Source: Alphaproteobacteria bacterium
Lineage (GTDB): Bacteria; Pseudomonadota; Alphaproteobacteria; Micropepsales; Micropepsaceae
Length of the DNA stretch: 33,852 nucleotides
Assembly: GCA_019242395.1 (NCBI GenBank)
Contig: JAFAVP010000252.1
Coordinates: forward strand, 1-33,852
Reading direction: 5' to 3'
Shown: positions 3,266 through 33,207 of the stretch, in pieces
Layout: each line of letters begins with the position of its first letter
How positions within the stretch are numbered: position 1 is the first letter of the stretch
Made by a program: the position numbers and the translations under genes
Notes under the pieces: model-generated
Told to the model about the DNA's origin: nothing
Databases searched by the model: none
What the model saw: the letters and a program-made list of their open reading frames with translations, nothing else

Positions 3266-3297
3266 GTGCCATATTCACCGCAGAAGGTGCGGCGATT

Positions 3298-4413
3298 ATG
3301 GCGACTTACATTCATGAACTAAAGGGCTGGCCGGAGTTCCACTGGAGCCAGGAACGTCTCGCCGAACGGCTGGCCGCCGTCCGTCACCGACAAGGACGGC
3401 TGATCGGTCGGATGGAAGCACTTGGCTTCCAACTGCGCGCCGAGGCCAATCTTGCGACCCTCACCGAAGAGGTCATCAAGTCCAGTGAGATCGAGGGCGA
3501 GATCTTGGAGAAGGACCAAGTTCGCTCCTCGATCGCCCGAAGGCTCGGCATGGATATTGGCGCGCTTACGCCCGCCGACCGCAACGTCGAAGGCGTCGTC
3601 GAGATGATGCTGGACGCGACCCAGAACTCCGCGAAGCCGCTCACCGACGAGCGGTTATTTGCGTGGCACGCAGCCCTGTTTCCGACAGGGCGCAGCGGTA
3701 TGACCAAGATCGTCGTTGGCGGCTGGCGTGACGACAGTGAAGGCCCCATGCAGGTCGTGTCTGGGGCCATCGGCAAGCAGAAGGTGCATTACCAAGCGCC
3801 CGCCGCCGCGCGCGTTCCGTCGGATATGCGCACCTTCTTGGAGTGGTTCAAGAACGACGAGCCAGCAGACCTCGTATTGAAGGCGGGCGTCGCTCACCTA
3901 TGGTTCGTTACCATCCATCCTTTCGAGGATGGCAATGGCCGCATCGCGCGCGCCATCGCCGACCTGTTGCTCGCCCGCTCGGAAGGAACGGCGCAACGCT
4001 TCTACAGTATGTCCGCGCAAATCCGCGAAGAACGAAAGACCTATTACGATATTCTGGAAGCGACCCAGAAGGGCAATCTCGACATCACCGAATGGCTGGA
4101 TTGGTTCCTACTCTGCCTCGACCGCGCTTTCGACGGCGCGGAAACCACGCTCGCCGCTGTCATGACGAAGGCGCGGTTCTGGGAGACGCACGCCGGCCAG
4201 TCGTTCAGTGATCGTCAGCGCAAGGTCATCAACAGGCTGCTGGATGGATTTGAAGGCAAACTCACCAACGCCAAATACGCGAAGCTCGCAAAGTGCTCAT
4301 CCGACACCGCATTGCGTGACATCGACGACTTGCTGAAAAAAAACGTTCTAACCAAGGACGCGGCTGGTGGGCGTAGTACGAGTTATGCGCTCTCGCTGGA
4401 GAACCAACCATAG
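3298..4413 (+). CDS. Fic family protein with DUF4172-like N-terminus (class II, self-inhibited)
   Basis: Fic proteins usually transfer AMP from ATP to a hydroxyl group of a target protein. The core motif HPFEDGNGR is complete at residues 207-215, with the catalytic His207. An inhibitory motif (S/T)xxxE(G/N) is present as SSEIEG at residues 62-67, on the N-terminal side of the Fic core, which defines class II. The N-terminus (HELKGWPEFHW) resembles DUF4172, and the C-terminal 70 residues look like a winged-helix domain. The start at 3298 was chosen because AGAAGG precedes it and the family-like sequence begins there; an upstream in-frame ATG at 3208 would add a stretch overlapping the repeat region. 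It lies between umuC and the defence operon on the same strand. Target and role (toxin, guard or regulator) are unknown. Confidence 0.9.
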   Translation: MATYIHELKGWPEFHWSQERLAERLAAVRHRQGRLIGRMEALGFQLRAEANLATLTEEVIKSSEIEGEILEKDQVRSSIARRLGMDIGALTPADRNVEGVVEMMLDATQNSAKPLTDERLFAWHAALFPTGRSGMTKIVVGGWRDDSEGPMQVVSGAIGKQKVHYQAPAAARVPSDMRTFLEWFKNDEPADLVLKAGVAHLWFVTIHPFEDGNGRIARAIADLLLARSEGTAQRFYSMSAQIREERKTYYDILEATQKGNLDITEWLDWFLLCLDRAFDGAETTLAAVMTKARFWETHAGQSFSDRQRKVINRLLDGFEGKLTNAKYAKLAKCSSDTALRDIDDLLKKNVLTKDAAGGRSTSYALSLENQP

Positions 4414-4473: not shown

Positions 4474-5688
4474 GTGAGCAAGAAAAAGCAAAAAAAGGGA
4501 GCCAGCATCGTAGCTATTGCTACGCGTCAGGCTAACCTCAAGCGGCGCGTGCGACGCCATCTCAAGTCCCTAGGCTTTAAGCGTTCCGCAGTGGACGGCC
4601 ATCTAATCGTAGAAGGCACTGGTAAAGACGTAATTCGGGCGCTGCATCAAGCACAGCGCAATGAGAAGCTAAGACTGAACAAGGAATTCATCGCCCAACA
4701 GCTTCCGAAATTGGAGAAGCATTTCGCATCAGGTTCGGATATCGACCCCACAAAGATCAAGCCGGAACTCGAACTCATTCACTCCGGCACGTGGAAAAGC
4801 GACTTATTTAGACTAGCTGCCCTTACATGGGCTGTGCCGGTCTCGAACGGTTTTGGTCGTCGGCTGCGCTATCTTGTGTGGGACAGGCACAATGACAAAC
4901 TGATCGGCCTTATCGCCATCGGCGATCCCGTGTTTAACCTGTCGGTGCGAGACAAGCACATTGGCTGGGATGTAAAGGCCCGCACCCAGCGTCTCGTCAA
5001 TATCCTTGATGCCTATGTGCTAGGTGCGGTGCCGCCGTACAATATGTTGCTTGGCGGTAAACTCGTCGCCTCGCTCATCCGCACTAGAGACATCTACAAC
5101 GACTTCACCAAGGCTTACGGCAACCTCAGAGGCATCATTTCCAAGAAGGAAAAGAATGCCCGCCTGTTGGCCGTTACGACATCTTCATCGTTGGGTCGTT
5201 CATCGGTCTACAACCGCCTCAAGCTCGGAGACACCCAATACTTCTCGGACATCGGCTTTACGCGCGGCTGGGGCCACTTTCACATTCCCGATGACCTCTT
5301 CTTCGAGATGCGCAATTATTTGCGCGATCTCAAACACAAATACGCCGACAAGCACCGCTTCGGCCAAGGCCCGAACTGGCGCCTCAGGACGACGCGCGCC
5401 GCACTTACCGCGCTCGGCTTCAAGGATGATCTACTCAAGCACGGCATCCAGCGGGAAGTCTTTTTCTGCGAACTCGCGAAAAACGCACGTCGGATGCTGC
5501 GAACTGGAAAGGGTCGGGCCGACCTGTCCACCTTGTTGAGCGCCGAGGAAGTGGGAGCGCTTGCCGTCAAGAGATGGATGGCGCCTCGCGCGGAACGCAG
5601 GCCGGAATACAAGGCTTGGCTAGCTTCAAACATCGCCACGTTGCTCACCGAAAAGCGCAACATCGGTAAAGTCGCAGAAATGAGGTAG
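4474..5688 (+). CDS. druA: Druantia anti-phage protein DruA (DUF4338)
   Basis: DruA is the first gene of type I Druantia anti-phage systems; its biochemical role was not established in the family knowledge I have. The 404-residue protein carries a clear DUF4338 region at about residues 100-300, with GRRLRYLVWDRHNDKLIGLI, GDPVFNLSVRD, LVNILDAYVLGAVPPYN and LLGGKLVASL. The N-terminus is very basic (MSKKKQKKG), which suits nucleic acid contact. The GTG start at 4474 is preceded by a GGGCGGGG stretch. The next gene starts 30 bases after the stop, and the helicase gene completes the operon. Identification of the domain is firm; the name DruA rests on the co-occurring DUF1998 helicase. Confidence 0.88.
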   Translation: MSKKKQKKGASIVAIATRQANLKRRVRRHLKSLGFKRSAVDGHLIVEGTGKDVIRALHQAQRNEKLRLNKEFIAQQLPKLEKHFASGSDIDPTKIKPELELIHSGTWKSDLFRLAALTWAVPVSNGFGRRLRYLVWDRHNDKLIGLIAIGDPVFNLSVRDKHIGWDVKARTQRLVNILDAYVLGAVPPYNMLLGGKLVASLIRTRDIYNDFTKAYGNLRGIISKKEKNARLLAVTTSSSLGRSSVYNRLKLGDTQYFSDIGFTRGWGHFHIPDDLFFEMRNYLRDLKHKYADKHRFGQGPNWRLRTTRAALTALGFKDDLLKHGIQREVFFCELAKNARRMLRTGKGRADLSTLLSAEEVGALAVKRWMAPRAERRPEYKAWLASNIATLLTEKRNIGKVAEMR

Positions 5689-5718
5689 GCAGTGGTTCAG
5701 AGCGTAGAGCGATAGGCC

Positions 5719-8562: not shown

Positions 8563-9647
8563 TCGAGATCACATCGCACGAACTACTCCAGCAAGTGCGC
8601 CGGGCATCGGGGTTGCCGATGATAATGGACAATAATCTCGACGATGCGCTTCTCGCGGCGTTGATACGCCGGGCAGCGGGCTTCCTTTGCCCATGCTCCC
8701 GCGCGACGGTCGCGGCAGCTGTGGTCGAAAGCTTAGAGTTTCTCGCTGACACCCCTGAAACATTGCGCGAGCGGGTTGACGCAGCTACGGAAACGCTGAT
8801 TGCGTTCGGCGATCTGTTGGAACTCAATCAAGTTACCATCGATGACCCACAGGCCAAGGGCACCTGGATCTTTGCGGCGCCGCCCGGTTTCGTGAAATTG
8901 CGTAGCGGCACCGTGTTGCTACTTGGCATTTCGCGGGACGAAAGCACACCGTTACCTTCGGAACTAAGCGATCAGGTGATCTACCATCGCTTTGCTCGCC
9001 TCTTGCCTGCCACCGGAAAGGATCAAGCAACGGCTCTTGCTGCATTGGGCCTAACCGCTCACACCGAAGAAGCATGGACGCGAGGGCCGCAGCCAGCAAC
9101 ACCGCAAACACTTGTCGAAAAGTTGGCGAGACGGTTGCTCTCCTCACCTTCCAGCGGAGAACTGCCCGAACTTACCTTCATCCGACCGGATACCGACACG
9201 ACCTATTATCGCGGGCGGTGGGGAGCACCTCGCAACGAGACGGGCGTGTTCATCGGGCGGCGCCCGCAGGACTTCGGCCGAGAAGGCATGTGGGGCGTTG
9301 TTCAACTCGCAAACGGTTTGCCGACGAAATTCCTCGATCTGCCCACCCGGTCGCGGTGGCGCGGCTGCGACGAGGCCTGGTATGTCCAACTGGCATTGGA
9401 TGCCACCCGTCGTACTCCCCAGAAATACCGTGTTCGACCCACTCAGGATGGATCATACTTTGATTTCTTTTCGCCGATCCCAAGCTGGGCGGAGCGTCGG
9501 CTAGCGATTGTGGGCGAGCTAGCCCCCCGCGCGAAGTGTTTGTTCTCATACCGCGTACCTCAGCAAGAGTTGAAGGCTCAGGAAGAGTATCTGCAAAAGA
9601 ACTTGTGGCTTGTTCGACACGATGACAAAAGCGAGACGGAGGGGTGA
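8553..9647 (+). CDS. Druantia-associated protein of unknown function (in the DruD position)
   Basis: This 364-residue protein lies directly before the DruE-like helicase gene. It overlaps the previous gene by 10 bases, and its stop TGA overlaps the helicase ATG by one base (TGATG), so it must be made together with both. I recognise no domain. The N-terminal 95 residues look helical. The middle contains GTWIFAAPPGFVKLRSGTVLLLGIS, and the C-terminal half is rich in Arg, Trp and aromatic residues (YYRGRWGAPRNETGVFIGRR). No membrane segment or signal peptide is seen. Position and size suggest the counterpart of DruD, but I could not align it, so the name is withheld. Confidence 0.68.
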   Translation: MAVVEITSHELLQQVRRASGLPMIMDNNLDDALLAALIRRAAGFLCPCSRATVAAAVVESLEFLADTPETLRERVDAATETLIAFGDLLELNQVTIDDPQAKGTWIFAAPPGFVKLRSGTVLLLGISRDESTPLPSELSDQVIYHRFARLLPATGKDQATALAALGLTAHTEEAWTRGPQPATPQTLVEKLARRLLSSPSSGELPELTFIRPDTDTTYYRGRWGAPRNETGVFIGRRPQDFGREGMWGVVQLANGLPTKFLDLPTRSRWRGCDEAWYVQLALDATRRTPQKYRVRPTQDGSYFDFFSPIPSWAERRLAIVGELAPRAKCLFSYRVPQQELKAQEEYLQKNLWLVRHDDKSETEG

Positions 9648-12600
9648 TGGCGCAGACTATTCAGGAAACGATCAAGCAACTGCACCACTCGTTGCGCGAT
9701 TACATTGAGGCGACGTACCACATCAGCGATCCGGCGCTCATTGAACAGCGCAAGCGGCTCCTCGATAAGCCTGGCATCATTCACCAAGTCCCTTATCTCG
9801 AATCCACGCCCCGCTATAAGTCGGGAGCGATTTTTGCCAGCATGAATGGACTCTCGCCCGCCGCTTTGGAAGTCTACCAGATGCTGTCCAAACCGGACGC
9901 GACGCTGCCGCAAATTCTTTACGACCCGCCCTACAAACATCAATCCGAGGCTATCCAAGGCAGCCTGATCGACGGGCGTAACCTACTCATTATGACCGGC
10001 ACCGGTTCGGGCAAAACTGAGTCATTCTTGCTGCCGATCATCGGCAAGCTGGCCAACGAGGCCGAGTCTTCGCCTAAATCGTTCAGTGACGATTTTGGCA
10101 TCCGCGCGCTGGTTCTCTATCCGATGAACGCGCTCGTGAATGACCAGCTGGGCCGCATGCGGTCGCTCTTTGGCGATCCGCGCGTGGTCAACAAGTTCCG
10201 AACCTGGGCCGGTCGTCCGCCCCGCTTCGCGCGTTACACCAGCCGCACGCCCTATGCCGGAGTGCGAACGAGCAAGAAGGACAGCAATAAGCTAATGCCG
10301 TTCGACAGTTTCTATGTCGAAATCCAAAGGCTGAGCAAAGAGTCGCCATCTGACGAACAACGACAGGCTTCGGCGATTCTCGAGCAACTCAAAAAGCGCG
10401 GTAAGTGGCCCGCGAAGCCGGACTTGCCGGGTTGGTTCGGGAAAAAGGGTTCCCCTTGGCAAGAAAGGAAATCAGGCGAGTGGCTCCGGGCGGTGACGCT
10501 GCCCGAAGACACCGAACTTCTTACTCGGCATGAGGCGCAGGTCACGGCGCCCGATCTGCTTGTGACCAACTATTCGATGCTCGAATACATGCTCATGCGG
10601 CCGATTGAGCGTACTATATTCGATCAGACCAAGGAGTGGTTGAGGAAAAATCCCAAGGAAAAATTTCTAGTAGTTTTGGACGAAGCGCATCTCTATCGCG
10701 GTGCGGCAGGTGCAGAGGTCGGATTGCTGTTACGCCGCCTGCGAGACCGTCTCGGTATTCCACCTGAGCGTTTCCAAGTGATTTGTGCCACAGCAAGCTT
10801 CACCAACAAGGATTATGCCGCCGATTTCGGTGCTCAGCTTGCAGGTGTTCCAGCGTCGACCTTCACCGCGATAACGGGTGATCTCGACCTACGCTCGCCG
10901 GACGGCGCGGGAACGGCAGACGACGCGAATATTCTGGCAGCAGTGGACATTGCGGCCTTCAATGAAGGCGCAGACACTGCGACGCGAGCGGAAGCGATTA
11001 AGCCTTTTCTCGCACATCAGGGCGTCGCACCGACGGGCGACTACGAACGCGACCTGTACGACGCGCTCAAGTCGTTTGCGCCTTTGGGCCGTCTCGTCAA
11101 TAAGACCATGAAACAGGCTATGCCCGTCGCGGAATTGAGCAAAGAGCTGTTCCCCGGTGCATCGCACGCTGAAGAGGCTGTTAGCGCGTTGATGACGCTG
11201 GGCAGCACGGCCAAGAAGGAACCGAATGGCCCAAGCCTTTTGCCTTGCCGCATCCATAACTTCTTCCGTGGGCTGCCAGGTCTTTGGGCCTGCCTCGACC
11301 CCGACTGCTCCGAGGTGCCGAAAGCCGAGCGGAGCGGGATCTGCGGAAAGCTCTATGGCCAGCCGCGTGAGCAATGCGATTGTGGATCGCGCGTTCTTGA
11401 ATTCTACTCATGCCGTTATTGCGGCACGGCCTACGCTCGCGCTTACTCGGATGACGTAGATAGCCCAACATCCCTTTGGTCGGAAGCTGGGCGTCGGTTG
11501 CGTATGGATGGCGGCGAGACCAACGCCATGCTGCCGCTCGATTTGCTGCTTGAGCAGCCCAGCCTTCCCAATCTCGCAGAGGCGGCGGATTACGACCTAG
11601 AAACGGGCCGCCTTAACCCCAATCAGCACAGCAAGCGCATGCGGACCGTCCATCTGCGGCGTGACCGGATCACGCCGGCCGTGGATGAGGACGGCGATCA
11701 GAGCAGGGATTTTGAATCCCGTGGCCAATTCGCGCCTTGCGCTTGCTGCGGCAAGACAGCGAAATTCGGTTATTCCTATGTGCAGGATCACCAGACCAAA
11801 GGCGATCAGCCCTTCGAGGCCCTTGTCTCGACACAGATTCAGATTCAGCCGCCCAGCCCAGTGAAAGCGACGAAGTTCGCACCGCTCAGGGGCCGCAAGG
11901 TCTTGGTATTCTCGGACTCGCGCCAAGTGGCTGCTCGTCTCGCGCCTAACCTTCAAATGTATTCGGTGCGCGACTCGCTACGCCCCCTTATTGTGTGGGG
12001 CTACCGCGAACTCAGCAAAAGCGTCGCCCTGAAAAATCTATTGAGCTTGGAGGATGTGTACCTTGCGGTTCTCCTTGCGTCTAAAAAGCTCGGCGTCCGC
12101 CTTCGCCCAGAATTGAAACAGCATGAAAGTTTCGACGGCGAGGAAACGGTTGAAGCCGCAGTCGCAAGCGGCGCGGCAAGTTCTGAGAACGGGTTACTGA
12201 CGCTAGGCATGCAGTTCCGTTCCGAGAAGCCGCCGGAGGCGTTGCTCGACGACATTATCAACACCATCCAAAATCCATTCTTGGGTTTGGAACCGCTAGC
12301 GCTTGCATCGTTGTGTGAGACCACGACGATTACCGAGGCACTGACAAAGCTTCCCGACATTCCTGGCATTGCCGATACTCCCCAAACCAAGGTCGAATTG
12401 ACCCGTGCCTGGCTGCGCTGTTGGCGCAACTTCGGCTTCTGGTTGAACGCCATGCCGTCAACTTGGTTCATGCGACCCCGCGCGCAAGGCACAAGCGTTC
12501 GCGGCAAGAAAGGCAAAGGCAAGTTTGACGCAATGGACGTGATCCTGACGGATCGGGGCACGCGCAAGATTTTCAATGACTATTGGACACCCGAGTTGGT

Positions 12601-15184
12601 TCGGCTGTTCACACAGGACACTTCTGGCTTTCTGAAACTTCAAGGAAGCAAACTCGCGCTGGATTTCGACGGGCCTTGGGTTCGCTGTTCGAGCTGTAAA
12701 TCGGTACATCGTCCCGTTTCAACGATTGCGCACTGTTTGGACTGTGGGCGCCCGACAGTGGCCCCTCTCGATCCGACTAATGATCCGGCCTTCCTGGCCC
12801 GTAAGGGTTATTACAGAGCGCCCGTCATGGCATCGTTGGCAGACCCCCCGCGTCAGCCGATGGCTCTAATCGCGGCGGAGCACACGGCGCAGCTAAATTC
12901 GCCGCAGAACGAGGACGTATTCTCAAAAGCGGAAGAGAACGAGCTACTGTTCCAAGACGTATCAGTAACGTGGGGTCGCAACGCAAATCGGGCGTCGGCC
13001 ATCGACGTGCTTTCAAGCACCACCACGATGGAGGTCGGCATCGACATCGGTGCGCTGTCCGGAGTGGCTTTGCGTAACATGCCTCCCGGTCGGGCAAACT
13101 ATCAGCAGCGTGCCGGTCGCGCGGGCCGTCGGGGTAACGCAGTGGCTACGGTTGTCGCCTTTGGCAGCGCTGATAGCCATGACGAGCATTACTTTGTGGA
13201 ACCCGATGCCATGATCCGGGGCGATGTGGTTGACCCGAGGCTCACGCTCAACAATCGGGACATCACACAGCGGCACATCCGAGCCTTCCTGCTGCAAAAC
13301 TATCATCAGGACAGGTTGCCCGATGTTGACCCCGCTCAAAATCATGACTTGTTCTCGGTGTTAGGTGATGTTGCTGATTTCCGTAACGGGACGGCGCTGC
13401 TGAATCGCGCAGATTTTGCCAAGTGGCTCAAGAAGAACGAGACCGATCTGCGCAAGCGTATTGATTCTTGGATACCGGAAGAGCTTTCCAAAGAAGATCG
13501 CGCTGCATTGCTCGGCGACTTCATCAGCGATTGCCTTAAAGCGGTTGACCGGGCCATCAAGTTTGATTCCAACGCGGCGGTTGTCTCGAAGGATGAAGAG
13601 GTCGAGGAAGGCGAAGAGGCGGCAGAGGAGGGCGAAGAGAAGCCCATACGCAATACCGAGACAGGAAAGCTGCTCGACCGGTTGCTGTATAGCGGTGTCC
13701 TTCCCCGCTACGCATTCCCGACCGATGTGGCCACCTTCCATGTTTTTGACCGCGCACGCTCCTCTAAATTCCGCGCCGTTATGCGTTTTGCGCCATCGCA
13801 AGGTCTGCCTATTGCGCTGTCGCAATATGCGCCGGGCAAGCAGATTTGGATTTCCGGCAAGTGCTATTCCTCCGGCGCGGTCTATTCTCCCATGCGCGAC
13901 GACCGTGATGCCGCCTGGGAGAACGGGAAACGCCTTTATTGGGAATGCGGTGTATGCGAGTTCGCACAGACCACCGACTATAAGGCAGAGGATAAAGGCG
14001 CCACCGTCGATTGCCCCGCCTGCGGAACGAAGGAATCGTTTGGACCTTCGCGATCATGGCTGCGGCCGCCCGGCTTTGCGCATCCGGTCGATGTGGAGGA
14101 AGTCACATCGCCCGACGACGTGCCGGAGACGAGCTATGCGACCCGCGCAAAGCTAACGATGAAAACGCCGGATCACGAATACGATTGGACACCTGTTAAC
14201 GCGCGAGTCGGCGCCCTAAAAGTTCGCGATCACTTGCTGGTGTCGAACAGTGGCCCCAAGAGCGACGGGTATTCTTACTGCGTCAAATGTGGCCGTATCG
14301 AAGCGGCCACCGAGGAACAGCCGAAGCTGTTTTCCGCGCACCCGAAGCCATATCCTGACGAGAAAGAAGAGACGTGCAGCGGCGATCGCACGGCGCAGCA
14401 TATCGTTCTGGGCACGGATTTCATTACGGATGTAGTGTTGTTCTCGCTCAAGGTCGCAGCGCCACTTCAACTATTACCCGGCCAATATCCGACCGACGTT
14501 GCGTTGCGAACCGTAAGCGAGGCGCTGGCTAAGGCCGCATGCGACCTGCTGGAAATCGAGCCTGGCGAGCTCATGGCGGAGTATCGCCCCGCCCTGACAA
14601 GAGACGGTAGGCTCGGCAAGGAAGCCGAAATTTTCCTATACGACACCCTACCGGGTGGGGCGGGATTTGCCAGCCAGCTTGTGGATCGGGGTCAGAAACT
14701 GTTCGAGCGTGCGCTTCATTTGATGAAGAGCTGTCCCGAACAGTGCGATGCCTCCTGTTATCGCTGCCTGCGCAGCTTCAAGAATAAATTTGAGCACGGG
14801 CTACTCGACCGCCACGTTGGAGCTGAGTTGCTCGAATATTTGCTGACTGGTCATCTACCCGGCTTCAATGCCGAACGGCTGGAAAGCTCAACGAAGCTAC
14901 TGTTCGCTGATTTGCAGCGGCAAGGTCGTACCGACGTAATCTACAAGGAGAATGAAACTATCAAGGTGAACGGCAAGGATGTCGTTGCCCCGATCCTTGC
15001 CGAGCGCGGAGGAAAGAAATTTATCGTGGCGTTAGCTGCGCCACTGACTTCGGCGCATCCGGCTGATCCGAGGATCGCAGCCATCAAAGACGCAAGTGTG
15101 GCAATCATCGTGGAGAATGAACTGCTCGCACGAGGCAACCTGCCCACAACGACGCGGAATGTCGAATTGAAATTAACTCTTTGA
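9647..15184 (+). CDS. druE: DruE-like giant DEAH-box helicase with C-terminal DUF1998
   Basis: This is the large helicase-like protein that defines Druantia systems. The 1845-residue sequence has Walker A GTGSGKT at 118-124, Walker B DEAH at 345-348, a motif III-like CATASF near 382 and motif VI QRAGRAGRRG at 1154-1163, so the two RecA-like halves are far apart and hold large inserts. Several Cys pairs suggest zinc ribbons (around 550-590, near 690, near 1015 and near 1430-1455). The C-terminal DUF1998 region has LPGGAGF and a Cys cluster C1696-x3-C1700-x3-C1704-x2-C1707. An acidic Glu-rich linker lies near 1315-1330. ATG 9647 follows GGAGGGG; a GTG at 9644 is also possible. DISARM also has a DUF1998 protein, but separate DrmA-type genes are absent. 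Confidence 0.92.
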   Translation: MAQTIQETIKQLHHSLRDYIEATYHISDPALIEQRKRLLDKPGIIHQVPYLESTPRYKSGAIFASMNGLSPAALEVYQMLSKPDATLPQILYDPPYKHQSEAIQGSLIDGRNLLIMTGTGSGKTESFLLPIIGKLANEAESSPKSFSDDFGIRALVLYPMNALVNDQLGRMRSLFGDPRVVNKFRTWAGRPPRFARYTSRTPYAGVRTSKKDSNKLMPFDSFYVEIQRLSKESPSDEQRQASAILEQLKKRGKWPAKPDLPGWFGKKGSPWQERKSGEWLRAVTLPEDTELLTRHEAQVTAPDLLVTNYSMLEYMLMRPIERTIFDQTKEWLRKNPKEKFLVVLDEAHLYRGAAGAEVGLLLRRLRDRLGIPPERFQVICATASFTNKDYAADFGAQLAGVPASTFTAITGDLDLRSPDGAGTADDANILAAVDIAAFNEGADTATRAEAIKPFLAHQGVAPTGDYERDLYDALKSFAPLGRLVNKTMKQAMPVAELSKELFPGASHAEEAVSALMTLGSTAKKEPNGPSLLPCRIHNFFRGLPGLWACLDPDCSEVPKAERSGICGKLYGQPREQCDCGSRVLEFYSCRYCGTAYARAYSDDVDSPTSLWSEAGRRLRMDGGETNAMLPLDLLLEQPSLPNLAEAADYDLETGRLNPNQHSKRMRTVHLRRDRITPAVDEDGDQSRDFESRGQFAPCACCGKTAKFGYSYVQDHQTKGDQPFEALVSTQIQIQPPSPVKATKFAPLRGRKVLVFSDSRQVAARLAPNLQMYSVRDSLRPLIVWGYRELSKSVALKNLLSLEDVYLAVLLASKKLGVRLRPELKQHESFDGEETVEAAVASGAASSENGLLTLGMQFRSEKPPEALLDDIINTIQNPFLGLEPLALASLCETTTITEALTKLPDIPGIADTPQTKVELTRAWLRCWRNFGFWLNAMPSTWFMRPRAQGTSVRGKKGKGKFDAMDVILTDRGTRKIFNDYWTPELVRLFTQDTSGFLKLQGSKLALDFDGPWVRCSSCKSVHRPVSTIAHCLDCGRPTVAPLDPTNDPAFLARKGYYRAPVMASLADPPRQPMALIAAEHTAQLNSPQNEDVFSKAEENELLFQDVSVTWGRNANRASAIDVLSSTTTMEVGIDIGALSGVALRNMPPGRANYQQRAGRAGRRGNAVATVVAFGSADSHDEHYFVEPDAMIRGDVVDPRLTLNNRDITQRHIRAFLLQNYHQDRLPDVDPAQNHDLFSVLGDVADFRNGTALLNRADFAKWLKKNETDLRKRIDSWIPEELSKEDRAALLGDFISDCLKAVDRAIKFDSNAAVVSKDEEVEEGEEAAEEGEEKPIRNTETGKLLDRLLYSGVLPRYAFPTDVATFHVFDRARSSKFRAVMRFAPSQGLPIALSQYAPGKQIWISGKCYSSGAVYSPMRDDRDAAWENGKRLYWECGVCEFAQTTDYKAEDKGATVDCPACGTKESFGPSRSWLRPPGFAHPVDVEEVTSPDDVPETSYATRAKLTMKTPDHEYDWTPVNARVGALKVRDHLLVSNSGPKSDGYSYCVKCGRIEAATEEQPKLFSAHPKPYPDEKEETCSGDRTAQHIVLGTDFITDVVLFSLKVAAPLQLLPGQYPTDVALRTVSEALAKAACDLLEIEPGELMAEYRPALTRDGRLGKEAEIFLYDTLPGGAGFASQLVDRGQKLFERALHLMKSCPEQCDASCYRCLRSFKNKFEHGLLDRHVGAELLEYLLTGHLPGFNAERLESSTKLLFADLQRQGRTDVIYKENETIKVNGKDVVAPILAERGGKKFIVALAAPLTSAHPADPRIAAIKDASVAIIVENELLARGNLPTTTRNVELKLTL

Positions 15185-25070: not shown

Positions 25071-27296
25071 TCACGCGGCCGGAGCCGCGCTCGGTTCCCA
25101 CATCAAGGCCGGCTCCGGCCGTCCGGCCACACGGTCCTCAGGGAGGTGGATCCGAGCGATGGTGCCGCAGCCATACTCGCTCGCCAGCGTGAAGCGTCCC
25201 CCGTGCAGTTCCACGAGGGCCTTGGTTATCGGGAGGCCAAGCCCCACGCCCCCGTAGGAACGCGCATACGTGTTCTCTGCCTGCCCGAACGGCTCCACAA
25301 CTGTGGCGAGCTTCTCTCTGGGAATGCCTTCGCCCTGATCTTTGACCGCAATGTCGACGCCGTCTTCCGTGCGCTCGACACAGACTTCCACGACAGATCC
25401 AGCAGGGCTGAACTTGAAGGCATTGGAAAGAAGGTTCATCAGTGCCTGACGGAACCGCGCCTCGTCGACTCGGACCAGAATATCCGGAGCGCCTAAAATA
25501 CGGAGTGCCCGGTCCGAACAGTCCTGAGACCGCAATGAAGCTACGGCGTCATCGAGGAGCGTGCCAAGGCTGACATGGTGATCTTCCAGCACGATTTTTC
25601 CCGACTCGATTCGCGCCATATCCAGAACACTGTTCAAGATCGCGAGCAGGTGGCGGCCGCCCTCCGCAATATCCGCCGCGTACTCGAGTGATTTCTCGGG
25701 TTTGGTCCGTCCGCCGAGCAAGAGTTCGGAGAATCCGATGATGGCGTTCAGCGGCGTGCGTAGCTCATGGCTCATGTTGGCAAGGAAGTGACTTTTCGCG
25801 CGGCTCGCTTGCTGGGCGGCCTGCATCGCCAAGCGAAGCTGCGACTCCACCGCAGTGCGCCGATCGATCTCCCTATCCCGGGCGGCAAGCGTTTGCATCA
25901 GCTCCGCGTTCTTCTGAGCAATGGCATTGCGGTGGCGCTTGAGGAGCGCGTTTCGCCAGCCAATCCATCCCAGCAACAGCAATCCACCGAAAATGACTCC
26001 TGCGAAAATCATCCCTTGGATCGCTGCTTGGGATTTGCGCAGGCGGATGTCGCGCTCCAGCTCCGCGGACCGCAGATGCGCGATCTCGAGGTCTTGCCGC
26101 GCAAAATCAAATTGCGCGCCAAGCAGCACGAGATTGGCAGATGCCGCAAGGGATCGCCCCTGATCGTCAAGCCGCTTGAATGCTTCGAGATGAAGGATGG
26201 CGTGGGGCAGATCGCCCTTCGCCCGGTAAATGACATAGGCGATGTTGTGCAGGTCGCGGAACGGCGGGGCTGTCGTCTTCAGGTCTAAGCCGCGAAACGC
26301 TTTTTGCACATCGGCTGCGGCGAGATCGAGATTGCCGCGCCGGAATTCGATCTCAGCCTTGGCCCCCCATGAGAACCGCGCCTCCCCATCTTCATCGACG
26401 TGCGCTGCGAGCGCAAAAGCCCGGTCGGCTGCGCGTTCTGCTTCGGGCAGGCGCTGCGTTCTTGCGTAGCTCCGTGCAAGACTGTTCAGAATGTTTGCCT
26501 CGAGAACGGGGCTGTTAAGCCCCCTCACAATGCTTAGCGCACGTTCGAACCTTGGGATGGCTTCCGAATAGCGGCCCATCTGTTCGTAAGCGAACCCCAT
26601 ATTGTTTGCTGCCGCGAGCGCAATGGCAGGATCCCCGGAGAAGGTTTCGGCCGCTTCGTGGTAATACCGGATTTCGCGATCGGAATCCCGAGCCTTCTCA
26701 TACAAGTCGCCCAGACCAAGCAAAGCCAGTGACTGGCTGCGAGGGATGTGCAGGCGTGCGAAGATCGCATGCGCGTTCTGATACTCGCGCAGCGCTTTTC
26801 CGAAATCGCCACTGGACTCGGCAATGCGCGCGCGCGAAAGCGCGAGATCGCCGTCGAGTTTATCGAGCTTGTGGTCTGCGTCCGCGAACCGCGAAGCCGC
26901 ATCGGCGGTTGCTCGTGCCTGTGCTATTCGGTTGGTGCGTGTCAGCGCTTCCGCCTCGAGCCAGAGCGCCATGGCTAAGGCATGATGATAGCGCGGCTCG
27001 CGCCTGTGCCGTTCCGCAATGGCCACAGCGCGCTGCGCCTCTCGCATTCCGGCTTCGGGGTTGGCCATCATGGCGATGGTCTGCGCATGCGTTACAAGTT
27101 TTTGGAACTCAAGCCACTCGGCGTGCCGCTGGTCAGCCGCCCGTGCCTTTAGAACTGGGGTGCTTGCACCCAAGGCAATCAGCGCACCCAGCAACAACAG
27201 AACATTGCAGTTTCTCGCGCGCCACTTGGATGAGATGCCCCGGAGTCCGGTCGCCCGTGGCGCGACAGAGGTTTTGATCACGGCAAATCCCGGCAC
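25071..27296 (-). CDS. orphan sensor histidine kinase with N-terminal TPR repeats
   Basis: This 741-residue protein has a hydrophobic segment near residues 31-50 (signal or anchor), a long helical TPR-rich sensor part (about 60-400, with YSEAIPRFERALSIV) and a membrane segment near 425-445 (IFAGVIFGGLLLLGWIGW). A coiled coil, then a HisKA domain with the phospho-acceptor His510 in NMSHELRTPLNAIIGF, and a HATPase domain follow. The N box (MNLLSNAFKFSP), G1 (DQGEGIP) and G2 (GGVGLGLP) are complete. No receiver domain is fused and no response regulator gene lies next to it, so its partner is unknown. The TPR part probably lies in the periplasm. Confidence 0.92.
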   Translation of the reverse strand: MPGFAVIKTSVAPRATGLRGISSKWRARNCNVLLLLGALIALGASTPVLKARAADQRHAEWLEFQKLVTHAQTIAMMANPEAGMREAQRAVAIAERHRREPRYHHALAMALWLEAEALTRTNRIAQARATADAASRFADADHKLDKLDGDLALSRARIAESSGDFGKALREYQNAHAIFARLHIPRSQSLALLGLGDLYEKARDSDREIRYYHEAAETFSGDPAIALAAANNMGFAYEQMGRYSEAIPRFERALSIVRGLNSPVLEANILNSLARSYARTQRLPEAERAADRAFALAAHVDEDGEARFSWGAKAEIEFRRGNLDLAAADVQKAFRGLDLKTTAPPFRDLHNIAYVIYRAKGDLPHAILHLEAFKRLDDQGRSLAASANLVLLGAQFDFARQDLEIAHLRSAELERDIRLRKSQAAIQGMIFAGVIFGGLLLLGWIGWRNALLKRHRNAIAQKNAELMQTLAARDREIDRRTAVESQLRLAMQAAQQASRAKSHFLANMSHELRTPLNAIIGFSELLLGGRTKPEKSLEYAADIAEGGRHLLAILNSVLDMARIESGKIVLEDHHVSLGTLLDDAVASLRSQDCSDRALRILGAPDILVRVDEARFRQALMNLLSNAFKFSPAGSVVEVCVERTEDGVDIAVKDQGEGIPREKLATVVEPFGQAENTYARSYGGVGLGLPITKALVELHGGRFTLASEYGCGTIARIHLPEDRVAGRPEPALMWEPSAAPAA

Positions 27297-27389: not shown

Positions 27390-27474
27390 TTAAGCAGGGG
27401 ACGCGAAAATTAAGGACTTCCGTCAAGGGGGGGGACGTTTTGGAAACAAGGCCGTCCACCGGCGTCTGCACGGC

Positions 27475-27536
27475 GGTTAAGGTTAACCTCCGGCGTTGAA
27501 ATTAACGGTTGACAAGGGTTAACAATCCCTTTACCG
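27475..27536 (+). promoter_or_regulatory. promoter/operator region for the peptide ORF
   Basis: TTGACA (27509-27514) is followed 16 bases later by a poor -10-like TTACCG (27531-27536). Around it sit repeated GTTAA motifs: GGTTAAGGTTAACC (27475-27488), TTAAC (27502-27506) and GTTAAC (27518-27523). These could be operator sites overlapping the -35 box. The -10 match is weak. Confidence 0.4.
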
Positions 27537-27620
27537 GTCGTACATCGAGGCCAAGTAGCGGAAGAAAGCGGCTGAGCCGCTCCGTGGATGGCTAGGGCAC
27601 AGGATCAAGCGGGGATTAGA

Positions 27621-27785
27621 ATGAGCACGATTGAAATTGCTGATCTGGACATCGAGTTGTCGGCGATTGGTGGGTACGATTCCGTGAGCGGTATGCCGTG
27701 TGGCTGCCTTCATGGGCCCATCCGCCCTATGCTGCGTCCGGAAGGCGCCGGCGAGGTTTCGAGCCTCGTATCTCTCCAGGACTGA
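27621..27785 (+). CDS. 54-residue small peptide with Gly-Gly leader-like motif
   Basis: The ORF starts at ATG 27621 with GGGG six bases upstream and ends at a TGA at 27783-27785. The product starts with an acidic MSTIEIADLDIELSAIGG, followed by YDSVSGMPCGCLHGPIRP and a Ser-rich tail. The acidic N-terminus ending in ELxxIGG resembles the leader of double-glycine-type secreted peptides or RiPP precursors, though the Glu and Ile positions are one residue off the consensus. A CGC motif sits in the possible core. A terminator follows at once. No C39-peptidase transporter or known modifying enzyme is seen, so the precursor idea is inference, and a simple small protein is also possible. An ATG at 27588 would add 11 residues. 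Confidence 0.5.
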   Translation: MSTIEIADLDIELSAIGGYDSVSGMPCGCLHGPIRPMLRPEGAGEVSSLVSLQD

Positions 27786-27813
27786 CGGTCGTTCCAAAGC
27801 AGATGACCTGATT

Positions 27814-27846
27814 GCCGCGGCTTAGGTCGCGGCCATCGGGTTTTTT
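27814..27846 (+). terminator. rho-independent terminator or attenuator after the peptide ORF
   Basis: The stem GCCGCG/CGCGGC (27814-27819 and 27828-27833) with an 8-base loop is followed by CATCGGG and then six T bases (27841-27846). It separates the peptide ORF from the downstream genes. Partial read-through would give more peptide than downstream protein, as often seen for precursor peptides. Confidence 0.6.
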
Positions 27847-27927
27847 GTCTTGCCCTCTGCCTTGGGACTGATTGGTAGCTCGGAGGAAATGCCTCCACGG
27901 GCGGCTGCAGCGTAAGATGGGCGTACT

Positions 27928-28764
27928 GTGTCCCAGGACACCGATAAATTTTTTCGGATCATCTCTCAGCTTGACGAACTGTTGATACCTGGCCTGGGTG
28001 AAGGCTTTTGGGCGGCCAGGCCGATTTTCGCGGAGATGGATCGCGCCTTCCTCAACGGCTGGAGTATCTGCCGGCTAGAGGAGATGCTGCACGGCAAGGA
28101 GCTGCTGGTCTTCCGGGATCGCAACGCGCTGACAATCAATATCACGAAGGGCTACGCCATTTCCCTCGCGCTGATTGGGGAGCCGCCGCCATCCCTTTTC
28201 CTCTATCCGCAGCACTACATGGCACGAAACGTCGGCGATACGCCGCTGAAGGTCCGCCGCTACAGGCCCGACCGGCCGATGCAGAATGAAATTTACGATC
28301 CGCAACTGCGCTTAGAGCTTCGTGATGAGATAACCCTCGCGCCGGGGGAAATGGTGGAGCGCGATGGGCGGTCGGACGTACTCGACTGGGAATCGACGGG
28401 GAGCACGGGGTACGCGCTCCGGCTGCATTCCGAAGGCTTCGGCCACTACGAGTGGGCTTTTGACCGCGCCACATTGGCCCCGAGTGGCGCAACCGTGCTC
28501 GACAGCTTTTCAAGCCAGGTCACAACGGCCATGCAGATGCTGACCGCGCTCGGTGTCCCGGTGGACCGGGGTTTTATCGAGGCAGGGCTCGCTTCCCCCT
28601 ACTTCCACGTCCGGTGGGAAACGGTTCGGATGATCGGGCAATTGGCGCCTGAAATGAGCGAAGAGGCGCTCGAACGCCTGAAAGACGATCCGCATCCGGC
28701 CATTCGGCGCGCTGTCGAGAAGACCAGGCAGATGAATGCTGGCCGGCAAGCTGCGAGCAACTGA
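27928..28764 (+). CDS. unknown protein with cupin-like middle and C-terminal HEAT-like repeat
   Basis: I do not recognise this 278-residue protein. The middle (about residues 65-190) looks like a beta-barrel (LTINITKGYAISLALIG, then TPLKVRRYRPDRP). The last 40 residues form an HEAT-type helix pair (VRWETVRMIGQL, LKDDPHPAIRRAVEKT). No signal peptide or membrane segment is seen. GTG 27928 is the start; its Shine-Dalgarno is weak. A GGAGG-AAATG-CCTCC hairpin lies just upstream at 27882-27896. The next gene encodes a protein of the same size and order of parts, so the two probably work together, perhaps as related subunits. Confidence 0.75.
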   Translation: MSQDTDKFFRIISQLDELLIPGLGEGFWAARPIFAEMDRAFLNGWSICRLEEMLHGKELLVFRDRNALTINITKGYAISLALIGEPPPSLFLYPQHYMARNVGDTPLKVRRYRPDRPMQNEIYDPQLRLELRDEITLAPGEMVERDGRSDVLDWESTGSTGYALRLHSEGFGHYEWAFDRATLAPSGATVLDSFSSQVTTAMQMLTALGVPVDRGFIEAGLASPYFHVRWETVRMIGQLAPEMSEEALERLKDDPHPAIRRAVEKTRQMNAGRQAASN

Positions 28765-28765
28765 A

Positions 28766-29650
28766 ATGGCGTATTCGTTTCCGGCCAAGACAAATCCGAC
28801 ACCTGTCGAGGTCGACGATTTCATCGATGCAGCTCGGCGAGCATTCAAGGGCGATAACTCGGTCGAGGCAATGGAGGCGGTGACCGAGAAGTTCCAGGGG
28901 CTGGCAGCCAATCGCGAGTACATTCGAGATGCTTTGCTAACGGAACTGAAGCGCATTGGGGACGAGCGTCACAATCTTGCGAGCTTCGCGCCTCAATCCT
29001 TCATCATCCACAGAGCGCCGCCATTTTCCCTGCGGCTGAATTTGTGGCTGCCGCCGGTGGGCAGCTCGCGCAAGATTGAGCAGGAGGCCCGGATCTACTC
29101 CTACCAGAAGGCGCACGATCATAATTTCAGCCTGCTGACTGTGGGCGCCGGTGGACCGGGCTATAACACCCGCGTGTACGAGTACGACCGTGGCACGATC
29201 GAGGGTTACGAGGGTGAACCCGTGGACATGACACATCTGGAGGATACGTCGCTCTCATTGGGTAAGGCGATGATCTACCGCCCCTTCGTCGACGTCCATG
29301 TTCAGCTGCCGCCTGAAGCTCCGTCCATGTCGTTGAATCTTCTGATCGAAGAGAAAGAGATTGTGGACGAGCCGCAGTATTTCTTCGATTTGAAAACCAG
29401 CACCGTGGTTCCGATGAACGACAATGAGGTTGGGCGGCGCGTTAGCTTCTTGGAAGCTGTTGGGCATTTCGCCGATGAGAACTGTGCGTCATTGCTGTTC
29501 GATGTTGCCCGCAAACACAAGACTCCTGACGTCCGGGCGGCTGCTCTGCATGCGATCCGCACCGCATTTCCGGAACGCCAGCCGGAGGTGGACGCGCAGG
29601 CGCGGTCCGACGGACATCCTTTGGTTCTGCGAGAGACGGCGAGCGCCTAA
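28766..29650 (+). CDS. putative cupin-fold protein with C-terminal HEAT-like repeat
   Basis: The 294-residue product has a likely cupin barrel at about residues 80-205. The stretch AHDHNFSLLTVG gives an HxH motif, followed by YNTRVYEYDRG with a Glu, and later FVDVHVQLPPEAPSMSLNLL with a third His. This is the HxH...E...H layout of metal-binding cupins (cysteine dioxygenase-like). The C-terminus has HEAT-like helices (SFLEAVGHFADEN, DVRAAALHAIRTAF). ATG 28766, two bases after the previous stop, is preferred over ATG 28736, which overlaps it. The reaction is unknown; a metal-dependent oxygenase acting on a peptide or amino acid is a hypothesis. Confidence 0.75.
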   Translation: MAYSFPAKTNPTPVEVDDFIDAARRAFKGDNSVEAMEAVTEKFQGLAANREYIRDALLTELKRIGDERHNLASFAPQSFIIHRAPPFSLRLNLWLPPVGSSRKIEQEARIYSYQKAHDHNFSLLTVGAGGPGYNTRVYEYDRGTIEGYEGEPVDMTHLEDTSLSLGKAMIYRPFVDVHVQLPPEAPSMSLNLLIEEKEIVDEPQYFFDLKTSTVVPMNDNEVGRRVSFLEAVGHFADENCASLLFDVARKHKTPDVRAAALHAIRTAFPERQPEVDAQARSDGHPLVLRETASA

Positions 29651-29853: not shown

Positions 29854-30678
29854 ATGCGCAGCTTTGGAACCCCCGGACGCCGCCAAGGGGCCTTTGCAGT
29901 CCTGGTGCTTGCCGCGTTGGCCTTAGGGGCGTGCCGGAGCAAGATACCCGAAGAACTTCCGCCCGCTCCAGAGCCGAGTTCTGCAAAGGAACCCGCGGCC
30001 GAGCGACAAGCCGATGTGCAGCACAGCATTGAGCGCGCCGTACGATTGCTCCAGAAAGGGGAAAGTGAAGCAGGGGACGCGGAACTACATGCGGTGTTGA
30101 ATGAAAAGCCGTCCAGCAGATCGGCCCGCTTCCTGATCGCGCAGATTGAAACCCCGATAGGGAAGCTGTTTCCGCAAGAGAGCTTCCCGGTAAGACTGGG
30201 AAAGAACCAGAAGCTTTCGCATCTGGCGAGCAAGTATCTAGGCAATCCGCTGGCGTTCTATGGTCTTGCGCGCTTCAACGGCATAGCCGTTCCGCTCAAC
30301 GTGCATGAAGGTCAGATCATCCGAATCCCGAAAACGCCGGGATCCCTGGTCGCAGCACAAAAGACGGCTGGTGGTCCTCCCTTGCGGTTATCCGGGCCCG
30401 CTTCCGAGTCGGAATTGGCATCGCTCCCTCCAGCCGACGCAGCAGCTCCGGCAGATGCGCCAGCCTCGCAAGGTAAGCCGGCAATCTCGCCGGCCCAGCA
30501 CAGGGCAGCTGAGCGCTTTTATCGCGCCGGCTTGATTGCCTTCCAGCGGCAGGATCTGGACCGCGCTATCGCCCAGTGGCGGAAGGCCGTTGCTGCCGAT
30601 CCGGGCTATGTCGATGCGCGCGTGAGTCTCGCCCAGGCCGAGAAGCTGAAACAGAATTTAAGACAATTGCGGAAATAG
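29854..30678 (+). CDS. lipoprotein with LysM domain and C-terminal TPR
   Basis: The 274-residue protein has a lipoprotein signal peptide with lipobox LGAC and the acylated Cys27. A helical segment follows (about residues 50-95). A LysM domain lies at about 107-158 (FPVRLGKNQKLSHLASKYLGNP, then NVHEGQIIRIPKTPG), which should bind peptidoglycan. A Pro/Ala-rich linker comes next, and the C-terminus is a TPR-like pair (YRAGLIAFQRQDLDRAIAQWRKAV). It probably sits in the outer membrane facing the periplasm. ATG 29854 has GGAG seven bases upstream. Its gene is convergent with the Ser/Thr kinase gene, seven bases between them. LysM/TPR lipoproteins of this kind are often near kinase/PP2C genes. Confidence 0.86.
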   Translation: MRSFGTPGRRQGAFAVLVLAALALGACRSKIPEELPPAPEPSSAKEPAAERQADVQHSIERAVRLLQKGESEAGDAELHAVLNEKPSSRSARFLIAQIETPIGKLFPQESFPVRLGKNQKLSHLASKYLGNPLAFYGLARFNGIAVPLNVHEGQIIRIPKTPGSLVAAQKTAGGPPLRLSGPASESELASLPPADAAAPADAPASQGKPAISPAQHRAAERFYRAGLIAFQRQDLDRAIAQWRKAVAADPGYVDARVSLAQAEKLKQNLRQLRK

Positions 30679-30685
30679 AACCCGC

Positions 30686-32371
30686 TCATCGCGGCTGGCG
30701 CGCGGCGAGCAGCGTCGCATCGGGCGAGCGCGCCGTACGCGCGAGCGTGGGAGTCGGGGGTGCTTCCGGCGCGACGGGCCGGCGTAACGCTGCCTGCATC
30801 TGAACCTGATCCGCCATTCTGTTGAACGCGGCAAACAATTCGCCGATCTCATCCTTCCGCTTCTGCGAGATGCGCACCTCGAGCGAGCCGCTGGCAAAGT
30901 CATCGAGCGACGCTCGCAACGTCCGCAAGGAGCGAAGAAGGAAAGTTCCGAGGATGCGGGAAAGCGCCATGGTTGTGGCTATGGCCACAAGGGCCAGTAT
31001 GGCCATCAGCCAGAGTGTGGCGTTCAGAACCCGCTGCATGCCTGCTTGATCCACCCCGAGGTACGTCCGGCCGACTTCCGTTTTCTGAAAGGTGATCGGA
31101 GTGTCGAACAAAAGGACCGAGCGTCCGTCCGGCAGGGACGACGAGGATACGGACATTGCCGTATCCTGCTCCAGGAGGTTGCCTGAAGGCGGACTGCGAT
31201 AGCGATGTCCGATCAGCCTGGGGTCTGTGGAGGCCTGCACCACATGGCGGTGGTCGGTGATGACCAGGTAATCGAAGCCACGAGCGCGGCCATCCTCGAC
31301 AAACATTCTCAAGGGAAGCCAGTTCTCACCCAGCGCCGGGACCGCGGCATGCAGTGCGACGAAGCGGGCGAGGGCTGCGCCGGACGAGATGGCCTGACCG
31401 CGCAGCACGTTGCGTTCGACGCCATACACGACAGCCATACTGGAAAGGAACAACACTCCCAGTGCCGCGCCGGCCAGCCCTGCCAGTTTCACGGGTAGCG
31501 GCAGGAAGCGGCTCCGCCTTCGGTCCCTTTCGTGCGCCGCGATGGCAGCAAGTTCCCGCTGCAGAGCTTCGACCGTCTTATGTCCGGTCTGAAAACGTTG
31601 CTCCGGCTGTTTTGCGAGCAGCTTCATCACCACCCGCTGCAAACCCTCCGGGACTTCCGGTGCTAGGCTCGAAATGGGCGCAGGATCCTGCTGCACGATC
31701 TGCAGCATCAAAAGAGCAAGGTTGGCGCTGTCGAACGGCTGAACGCCCGTCAGCATCTGATAGAGGATAGCGCCCAGTGAAAACAGGTCGGATCGGCCGT
31801 CGACCTCGCGCCCCATGGCCTGCTCGGGCGACATGTAGCGCGGGGTACCCAGGATGGTCCCCGTTTGGGTGCGTTCGACATTGTGCTTGCTGTCCAGCCG
31901 CGCGACGCCGAAATCCGTGAGCTTGATCGTTTCGCCGCCATTCACCAGAAGGACGTTCTCCGGCTTCAGATCGCGATGCACGATTCCATGCCGGTGTGCA
32001 TGATCGAGTGCCCGTGCGAGCTGGATGGCGATTCCGATCGCCCGCTTCGGCGGCAACCGGGCGTGAGAACTCAGCAATTCCGCAAGGGATTTTTCCGGCA
32101 GGTACTCCATCGTGATGTACGGCCGATTGTTGACCCGGCCAACATCGTAGATGGTGACGATATTGGGGTGCGAGATCGTGCCGGCCGCCTGCGCTTCGCG
32201 CTGGAACCGGGCAAGGAACTCCTCGTCGACATTAGGACCAACCTTGAGGAGCTTGATTGCGACGGTTCTCCCGATGGCCGGGTCCTTCGCGCGATATACG
32301 ATAGCCGTGGCGCCTTCAGCGATTGGCGCTTCAATCTGGTAACGTCCGATGCGTGCCCCTCTGGATTCCAT
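30686..32371 (-). CDS. membrane Ser/Thr protein kinase with extracytoplasmic sensor and HAMP
   Basis: In 561 residues the kinase domain comes first, with a glycine-rich loop (AEGATAIVYRAKD), the ATP-binding Lys40, HRD at 132-134, DFG at 153-155 and GTPRYMSPEQ at 175-184. A membrane segment lies at about 293-315, then a ~135-residue periplasmic region with a single-Cache-like pattern (FDYLVITDHRHVVQASTDPRLIGHRY). A second membrane segment (452-472) and a HAMP domain (473-525) follow. This order, kinase-TM-sensor-TM-HAMP, is unusual; the C-terminus is Pro-rich. Its gene is divergent from the PP2C phosphatase gene, so they may form a phosphorylation on/off pair. Confidence 0.93.
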   Translation of the reverse strand: MESRGARIGRYQIEAPIAEGATAIVYRAKDPAIGRTVAIKLLKVGPNVDEEFLARFQREAQAAGTISHPNIVTIYDVGRVNNRPYITMEYLPEKSLAELLSSHARLPPKRAIGIAIQLARALDHAHRHGIVHRDLKPENVLLVNGGETIKLTDFGVARLDSKHNVERTQTGTILGTPRYMSPEQAMGREVDGRSDLFSLGAILYQMLTGVQPFDSANLALLMLQIVQQDPAPISSLAPEVPEGLQRVVMKLLAKQPEQRFQTGHKTVEALQRELAAIAAHERDRRRSRFLPLPVKLAGLAGAALGVLFLSSMAVVYGVERNVLRGQAISSGAALARFVALHAAVPALGENWLPLRMFVEDGRARGFDYLVITDHRHVVQASTDPRLIGHRYRSPPSGNLLEQDTAMSVSSSSLPDGRSVLLFDTPITFQKTEVGRTYLGVDQAGMQRVLNATLWLMAILALVAIATTMALSRILGTFLLRSLRTLRASLDDFASGSLEVRISQKRKDEIGELFAAFNRMADQVQMQAALRRPVAPEAPPTPTLARTARSPDATLLAARQPR

Positions 32372-32487: not shown

Positions 32488-33207
32488 ATGCCCGTTCATC
32501 TTTCTTTCCGGTCGGTTAACAGAAGTCATCCGGGACGGGTACGCCCGAACAACGAAGACGCTGTGTTTGCCGATGATGCCAAGGGTTTCTGGGCTGTGGC
32601 CGATGGCTTGGGAGGACATGAAGGCGGCGAGGTGGCAAGCGCCGCTGTCATAGATTCATTGGCGGAAATATCTGCAAATCCGCGCACGCTGGAAGGTGCG
32701 GTGCGGGCAGCGATTATGGGCGTTCACCGCAATATCCACGAGCGAAACAGGGCCGCTGGGGTTGGGCCGGGCATGGGTACGACGGTGGCAGTGTTGGGAG
32801 TCTCGGGGGCAGGCTACTTCTGCCTCTGGGCCGGAGATAGCCGGGTTTGCCGATTGCGAGGAACGGAGCTGACACGCCTTACGCGCGATCATCGCTACGT
32901 CCAGGAGTTGGTCGACGCTGGAGCGCTCACCAGCGAGCAGGCCGCGTCTCACCCACAGCGCAACACCATCACGCGCGCCGTTGGAACGGACCGCGCGTTG
33001 TCACTCGATCGGGTGGGAGGGGAAGCCCGCAAGGAAGACAGGTTCATCTTGATGACCGATGGGGTGAGCGACCTGTGTACCGATGCCGAAATCGCAGCAC
33101 GGATGAGGCTGAGCGATCCCGAAAAAGGCGCGGACGATCTGCTTGCGCTTTGCCTCTCTCGCGGGGCACCGGACAACGTCTCGTTTGTGATCGTGCATCC
33201 TCGCTGA
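32488..33207 (+). CDS. PP2C-family Ser/Thr protein phosphatase (Stp-like)
   Basis: The 239-residue phosphatase removes phosphate from Ser/Thr residues using Mn2+ or Mg2+. The motifs are all visible: N-E-D in RVRPNNEDAV, DGLGGHEGGE, GMGTTVAVL, GDSRVCRLR, TRDHRYVQELV, ITRAVG, LMTDGVSD and DNVSFVIV. It lacks membrane segments. A 116-base gap to the divergent kinase gene must carry both promoters. The likely substrate is the partner kinase or its targets. The stop lies 12 bases from the convergent aprA gene. Confidence 0.94.
   Translation: MPVHLSFRSVNRSHPGRVRPNNEDAVFADDAKGFWAVADGLGGHEGGEVASAAVIDSLAEISANPRTLEGAVRAAIMGVHRNIHERNRAAGVGPGMGTTVAVLGVSGAGYFCLWAGDSRVCRLRGTELTRLTRDHRYVQELVDAGALTSEQAASHPQRNTITRAVGTDRALSLDRVGGEARKEDRFILMTDGVSDLCTDAEIAARMRLSDPEKGADDLLALCLSRGAPDNVSFVIVHPR

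Follow-up and report, generated by a model that had tools for sequence, protein, structure and literature searches.

We found that a short gene for a 54-residue peptide (P) sits beside two genes for paralogous proteins (A and B), and that small ORFs next to A-B pairs recur in other alphaproteobacteria and on a gammaproteobacterial plasmid. Our leading interpretation, which we hold with modest confidence, is that P, A, and B form a RiPP-like module and that P is modified by a pair of predicted barrel-HEAT proteins, of which B would be active and A inactive. We do not claim that the module belongs to the RiPPs, as the known RiPP enzymes are absent. The window (the whole stretch of DNA that we analyzed, 33,852 nucleotides) carries the module on its forward strand in the order P, a hairpin ending in six T, A, and B. 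P, a putative precursor or client peptide (MSTIEIADLDIELSAIGGYDSVSGMPCGCLHGPIRPMLRPEGAGEVSSLVSLQD), is encoded at 27621..27785. A (278 amino acids, GTG start) is at 27928..28764, and B (294 amino acids) is at 28766..29650, with its ATG one base past the stop codon of A.

A and B are full-length paralogs. In a profile-profile comparison with hhalign (34 rows for A and 37 for B), the two aligned over their full lengths with a probability of 98.9 and a P-value of 1.8e-16. (The A alignment contains 32 sequences from 78 A-B copies, plus those from the window and from locus L013.) The HEAT part alone gave a P-value of 1.2e-8. The beta part alone gave 1.2e-4 (with a probability of 28 or 55 in two runs), as compared to 0.0098 for a reversed control and 0.44-0.98 for five column shuffles. 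At the C-termini of A and B from the window, HEAT_2 matches with E = 0.00097 and 0.011, below Pfam's cut-off. When 38 aligned sequences were scanned, HEAT_2 matched 13 of them at E ≤ 0.1, with a best E-value of 3.1e-9. (The 38 sequences that we scanned against Pfam and PDB are 37 B proteins and one A protein, L127:7365-8144.) Pfam and NCBIfam otherwise returned nothing but sub-threshold noise for A and B and no known RiPP enzyme family, which agrees with an earlier sequence-only reading of this DNA that the usual peptide-modifying enzymes are missing. PADLOC assigned A, B, and the B protein from Alteromonas to 0 families, and profile searches of PDB returned helical HEAT or alphaRep repeats and chance chains alone.

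We then examined the conserved residues. In B, Trp94, His117, His119, Gly130, Gly132, Tyr133, and Ser187 are invariant (37/37 rows), and Asp176, His178, and Gln180 are each present in 36 of the 37. (His178 is replaced by arginine in L090.) A has no conserved counterpart of the HxH motif: just 7 of its 34 rows hold an HxH, at scattered places. Instead, A has an invariant tryptophan (34/34) that follows a near-invariant arginine (32/34). The conservation of B is as expected of a catalytic site, with A as the divergent, degenerate paralog.

The sequence-only reading had seen the HxH...E...H metal layout of a cupin in B. The histidines of this layout (His117, His119, and His178) are near-invariant, but the glutamate is found in 23 of the 37 rows, and Pfam found no cupin or other barrel family among the 38 aligned sequences. 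AlphaFold2, run on three sequences (those of the window, L012, and L013), gave a mean pLDDT of 40.8 for B and 44.9 for A. In these low-confidence models, both proteins run from helices to strands to helices, which is consistent with a barrel-HEAT architecture and proves nothing. Of the earlier description of two similarly built proteins, a barrel followed by HEAT repeats, the relatedness and the weak C-terminal HEAT_2 matches hold up, but neither profiles nor models back the barrel. The layout of B resembles that of cysteine dioxygenase, a 3-His cupin: HxH, a histidine about 60 residues on, and then SxS or SxN. B differs from CDO_I (PF05995) in having extra helices and HEAT repeats; CDO_I did not match any of the 38 aligned sequences at E ≤ 0.1, nor was it found in the window genome. 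We consider B to be a putative peptide-modifying metalloenzyme, with a cupin fold that is predicted from the motif.

The 54-residue ORF that had been noticed at 27621-27785 has homologs in two genomes of the same genus and is under purifying selection. Among 100 relatives searched, P matched G042 (E = 4.9e-21) and G056 (E = 1.8e-25), and nothing else apart from a chance match in G065 (L008), which we dropped because it is antisense to an acyl-CoA dehydrogenase-like ORF. The window genome (G000) has a single copy of P. (A second match, at E = 0.57, is noise.) All three genomes have P, A, and B: the gene order in G042 is again P-A-B, and the locus in G056 is split across two contigs, with both pieces consistent with that order. 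P is 73-84% identical among the three. In the three pairwise comparisons, dN is 0.14-0.21 and dS is 1.2-1.7, for a dN/dS of about 0.11-0.14; between the window and G042, for instance, there are differences at 22.5 of 122.8 nonsynonymous sites and at 26.5 of 39.2 synonymous sites. Because dN is far below dS, P has the signature of a translated and constrained peptide. The conserved part within the genus is IADLDxELSAIGGYDxxSGMPCGxLxGPIRPxxRPExxGxVxSLV. P has no match in Pfam or NCBIfam.

The module is rare within the window's order: B is found in 3 of 96 genomes, exactly the three that have P. Across the class, a three-row profile of B matched 6 of 385 genomes. For one of the alphaproteobacterial families identified in this way (f12, perhaps the Sphingomonadaceae, to judge from gene content), 134 of 397 sampled genomes encode a relative of B. 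At the level of the phylum, a 16-row profile matched 15 of 398 genomes and added two families: f196, in one genus of which 6 of 61 genomes have a relative of B, and f190, with relatives in 4 of 118 genomes. Relatives are also encoded on two gammaproteobacterial plasmids, pASTE61-200 of Alteromonas stellipolaris and one from Vibrio sp. ED002, where both are annotated as "hypothetical protein." Among phages and IMG/VR contigs, there was no relative of B. Against one genome per species, B as a single-sequence query found no relatives, and the three-row profile found just the two known genomes.

From among these relatives, we collected 79 copies of B, which are part of those listed: 45 in a first set (from 44 loci), 20 that were held out, and 14 in a last set (from the two plasmids, f196, and f190). 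In 78 of the 79 copies, an ORF of at least 180 amino acids on the same strand abuts B, ending between -80 and +100 nt of its start. The exception, in the last set, is the A protein of L127, which was itself caught by the B profile.

Is a peptide also linked to these A-B pairs? We built a profile from 31 peptides of the first set, which were chosen by a pattern and by eye, and scored it against every ORF of the other loci, counting matches of at least 8 bits. In the held-out set, 19 of 20 loci have a match 5' of A, with scores of 20.7-77.1 bits and at -1074 to -1183 nt relative to the start of B. In none of the 20 loci was there a match of at least 8 bits anywhere else. At the remaining locus, L149, a similar small ORF abuts A (MPIVIPQLAIEDIADLPDPVSPFALSDGGELDISLMDVVIAIIDQP; identified by eye). 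In the first set, with the training loci included, 42 of 45 copies have a match, and matches away from A come solely from L073. (This locus, on contig C30 of G758, has two tandem P-A-B modules on one strand, with differing peptides.) In the last set, the profile recognizes a peptide for 5 of 14 copies. For most of the rest, inspection by eye reveals a small ORF at the corresponding position, which is weaker evidence than a profile match; at L127 we saw none.

The sequence-only reading had suggested looking for a small ORF that is always beside A and B. We searched the held-out loci for A-B pairs that lack one and found none, counting the one at L149 that was seen by eye. So the linkage of precursor to partner proteins that characterizes RiPP pathways is present here, both between the peptide and A (19/20 held-out loci) and between A and B (78/79 copies). 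This supports the earlier idea of a new peptide-processing pair.

A caveat is that P from the window does not resemble the other peptides. It scores 1.7 bits against the profile, while the best of 2,000 shuffles of P scores 9.9 bits. It starts 1,145 nt 5' of the start of B, which is where the profile-recognized peptides of other families lie. P is thus tied to the family through its place and its partners, not through its sequence. We had equated the IGG of P with the EVGG of other peptides, but dropped this; homology at the sequence level could not be demonstrated.

The IGG had been read as the end of a Gly-Gly leader, which we consider a weak reading. It is conserved within the genus, but most relatives lack a double glycine there and have VGxxG or other residues, so that the site is not conserved across homologs. 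Only the peptides of L130 and L131 have, by eye, a classical double-glycine leader (LTLEDAEFVSGGG). We also did not recognize a C39 peptidase or an exporter beside the module in the window. The resemblance to double-glycine/C39 systems is confined to the IGG or GGG of these peptides and of P in the window lineage; no C39 transporter was recognized beside the module.

The Cys-Gly-Cys core that had been described in P did not survive comparison within the genus. One cysteine is common to the three genomes, and the second is a serine in G042, which gives Cys-Gly-Ser. Among the 31 related peptides, 15 contain cysteine and 16 do not, so we dropped cysteine chemistry as a common feature. This matters for another suggestion of the sequence-only reading, that the genes handle metals. 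P could be a metal-binding or metallophore-like peptide, with A and B as its loaders. The 3-His motif of B and the cysteine of P in the window lineage would fit with this. But P lacks a conserved pair of cysteines, many of the related peptides are Cys-free, and we did not recognize a metal transporter or a metal regulator near the module, so we give this explanation little credence.

The C-terminal halves of most related peptides are hydrophobic, with tails that are rich in glycine, valine, and isoleucine. The median hydropathy of the best 12-residue stretch is 2.29 for the 31 peptides and 2.8 for 11 divergent ones. P from the window lineage is hydrophilic (median of 1.08 for three peptides). 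The hydrophobic stretches raise the possibility that P is a small membrane or signaling peptide that A and B bind without modifying. The 3-His barrel of B would then sense a ligand or a metal, A and B would sequester or release P, and within the genus they might be wired to a histidine kinase. This kinase (25074..27296 on the reverse strand, with TPRs and matches to HisKA and HATPase_c) is divergent from P, which it adjoins in each of the genus's three P-A-B genomes, and is a possible regulator. The genomic context in f12 would also suit such a role. Many of its modules share one conserved chromosomal neighborhood of a housekeeping kind, and many loci of this stable sort are without exporters. 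Other f12 modules adjoin sigma-factor-like or response-regulator-like genes, as judged by eye.

On the other hand, the kinase does not track the module. Its family has two copies in the window genome (G000 C204 and C78) and, across the genus, is represented in 13 of 69 genomes, while within the order, B is found only in G000, G042, and G056. We therefore dropped the idea of a tight linkage; most of these kinase genes do not have P-A-B alongside. The existence of these paralogs, the catalytic-site-like conservation of B, the exporters in some clusters, and the hydrophilic P of the window lineage all argue against a sensor that leaves P unmodified, and we consider it unlikely. (The closest relative of the kinase outside the genomes with P-A-B, at L156 on contig C146 of G022, adjoins a fragment of A that lacks the beginning of the gene and extends to the end of the contig. 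G022 has this remnant of A and neither P nor B, and it is a decayed or truncated copy of the module.)

Exporter genes accompany the Alteromonas module, and ABC-like genes, as judged by eye, accompany some f196 modules. On the Alteromonas plasmid, genes for HlyD, an ABC ATPase, a MacB permease, two small ORFs, A, B, another ABC ATPase, and an ABC-2 permease all run in one direction. In the plasmid record, the small ORFs immediately 5' of A are left without a gene annotation. (Because the peptide genes are very short, annotation can miss them.) In f196, the loci L124, L125, and L128 have ABC-like genes downstream of B, as judged by eye. L128 (from G1253) has two copies of B that are separated by about 6 kb; MacB-like and ABC-like genes, also identified by eye, lie in this interval and past the second copy. 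On the Vibrio plasmid (L095, 6152-8745), a short A and B lie between recombinase and restriction-modification genes; a 59-residue ORF overlaps the end of B, and there is no clear peptide 5' of A.

These transporters, together with the hydrophobic tails, would be compatible with an exported bacteriocin-like peptide for which A and B are dedicated chaperones or immunity proteins instead of enzymes. That would leave the near-invariant 3-His motif of B to be accounted for, and we did not recognize an exporter or a peptidase beside most alphaproteobacterial copies, so this explanation seems quite improbable to us.

The sequence-only reading had placed a strong terminator after P. The region 27783-27860 folds with -36.4 kcal/mol (z = -4.5), and none of 200 dinucleotide shuffles was as stable. 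The stem and its run of six T are at 27805..27847 (forward strand) and might be a terminator or attenuator, or might stabilize the 3' end of the transcript. The stable hairpin and the T run fit the earlier description, but a simple terminator scan did not list them. Rfam had no match in 27400-28000 of the window. With dinucleotide shuffles, the same region has z = -4.4 in G042 and z = -0.6 in G056.

More broadly, we folded the 90 nt past P at 66 loci with a profile-recognized peptide. The mean z was -2.58, as compared to -0.14 in a control region 400 nt downstream, and 40 of 66 loci had z < -2, as compared to 2 of 66 for the control (Wilcoxon p = 2.4e-10). This comparison used mononucleotide shuffles, and the control stretch is probably coding DNA. 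A run of five T is present in just 3 of the 66 stretches, so most of these hairpins are not classical terminators.

A constrained peptide, a pair of paralogs of which one has a 3-His motif, the hairpin, and the exporters of some clusters suggest that the module works like a RiPP pathway. In the mechanism that we favor, P would be made by the ribosome and its N-terminal half would be recognized by the A/B pair. B would bind a metal, probably iron, through the three histidines of a small beta-barrel, and would oxidize or otherwise modify P. A would be a catalytically dead paralog that helps to bind and position P, and both proteins would use their C-terminal HEAT repeats. The hairpin may lead to more of the peptide than of the enzymes. 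The ABC transporters would export the product in some gammaproteobacterial clusters, while in other clusters, including the one in the window, it may remain in the cell or the membrane. We infer the barrel fold, the metal, the formation of a complex, the chemistry of modification, and the function.

Several observations weigh against modification of P by A and B: the missing evidence for the fold, the lack of a sequence match for P from the window, the rarity of the module in its own order, the failure to recognize an exporter or a peptidase beside the window's copy and most alphaproteobacterial copies, and the housekeeping placement of many of the latter, which is unusual for a natural-product cluster. 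With more hesitation, we suggest that the modules could represent an undescribed RiPP class of alpha- and gammaproteobacteria, in which a heteromeric pair of barrel-HEAT paralogs, one with a 3-His metal site and the other dead, oxidizes short and often strongly hydrophobic peptides, and that in many alphaproteobacteria the product could be a housekeeping membrane peptide. If this is true, then these are peptide-modifying enzymes that are not named by any family library that we searched, the three genes are a cassette with a predicted metal site, and an orphan conserved neighborhood would be explained.

There are precedents for cupins in peptide modification. PbsQ is a cupin-type enzyme that modifies a RiPP precursor (PMC12257519). 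As in P-A-B, the biphenomycin-like clusters of PbsQ and BpmG have a small precursor gene near the gene for a cupin-like, peptide-oxidizing enzyme (a cupin/JmjC-type hydroxylase). But in those clusters the cupin belongs to a larger set of enzymes, along with an MNIO and a B12-rSAM (PMC12257519), and we saw no such genes beside P-A-B. P-A-B also differs in having a predicted barrel that is fused to HEAT repeats, an inactive-looking paralog, and no match to a cupin family. Similarly, some proteusin-type clusters have a cupin-family gene (cupin_4) beside the precursor, but these have NHLP leaders and other families (PMC9426513), and B matches no cupin in Pfam. In a search of the open-access literature with narrow terms, which does not establish absence from print, we did not recognize any paper on the P-A-B trio; PMC12710340 mentions neither HEAT nor cupin.

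Other genes in the window include a Druantia-like defense system (4474-15184, forward strand). PADLOC identified DruA (E = 2.1e-199), DruD (3.7e-117), and DruE (E = 0, with the DruE1 model), and the system includes a 947-residue protein with no PADLOC match. Ahead of it is a Fic-like protein (3208-4413) that matches SoFic (3.3e-45). Downstream of the module are a lipoprotein-like TPR gene (29854-30678) and, near it, a serine/threonine kinase with a HAMP domain by Pfam (30686-32371, reverse strand). Divergent from this kinase is a gene (32488-33207, forward strand) that, by eye, resembles a PP2C-type phosphatase.
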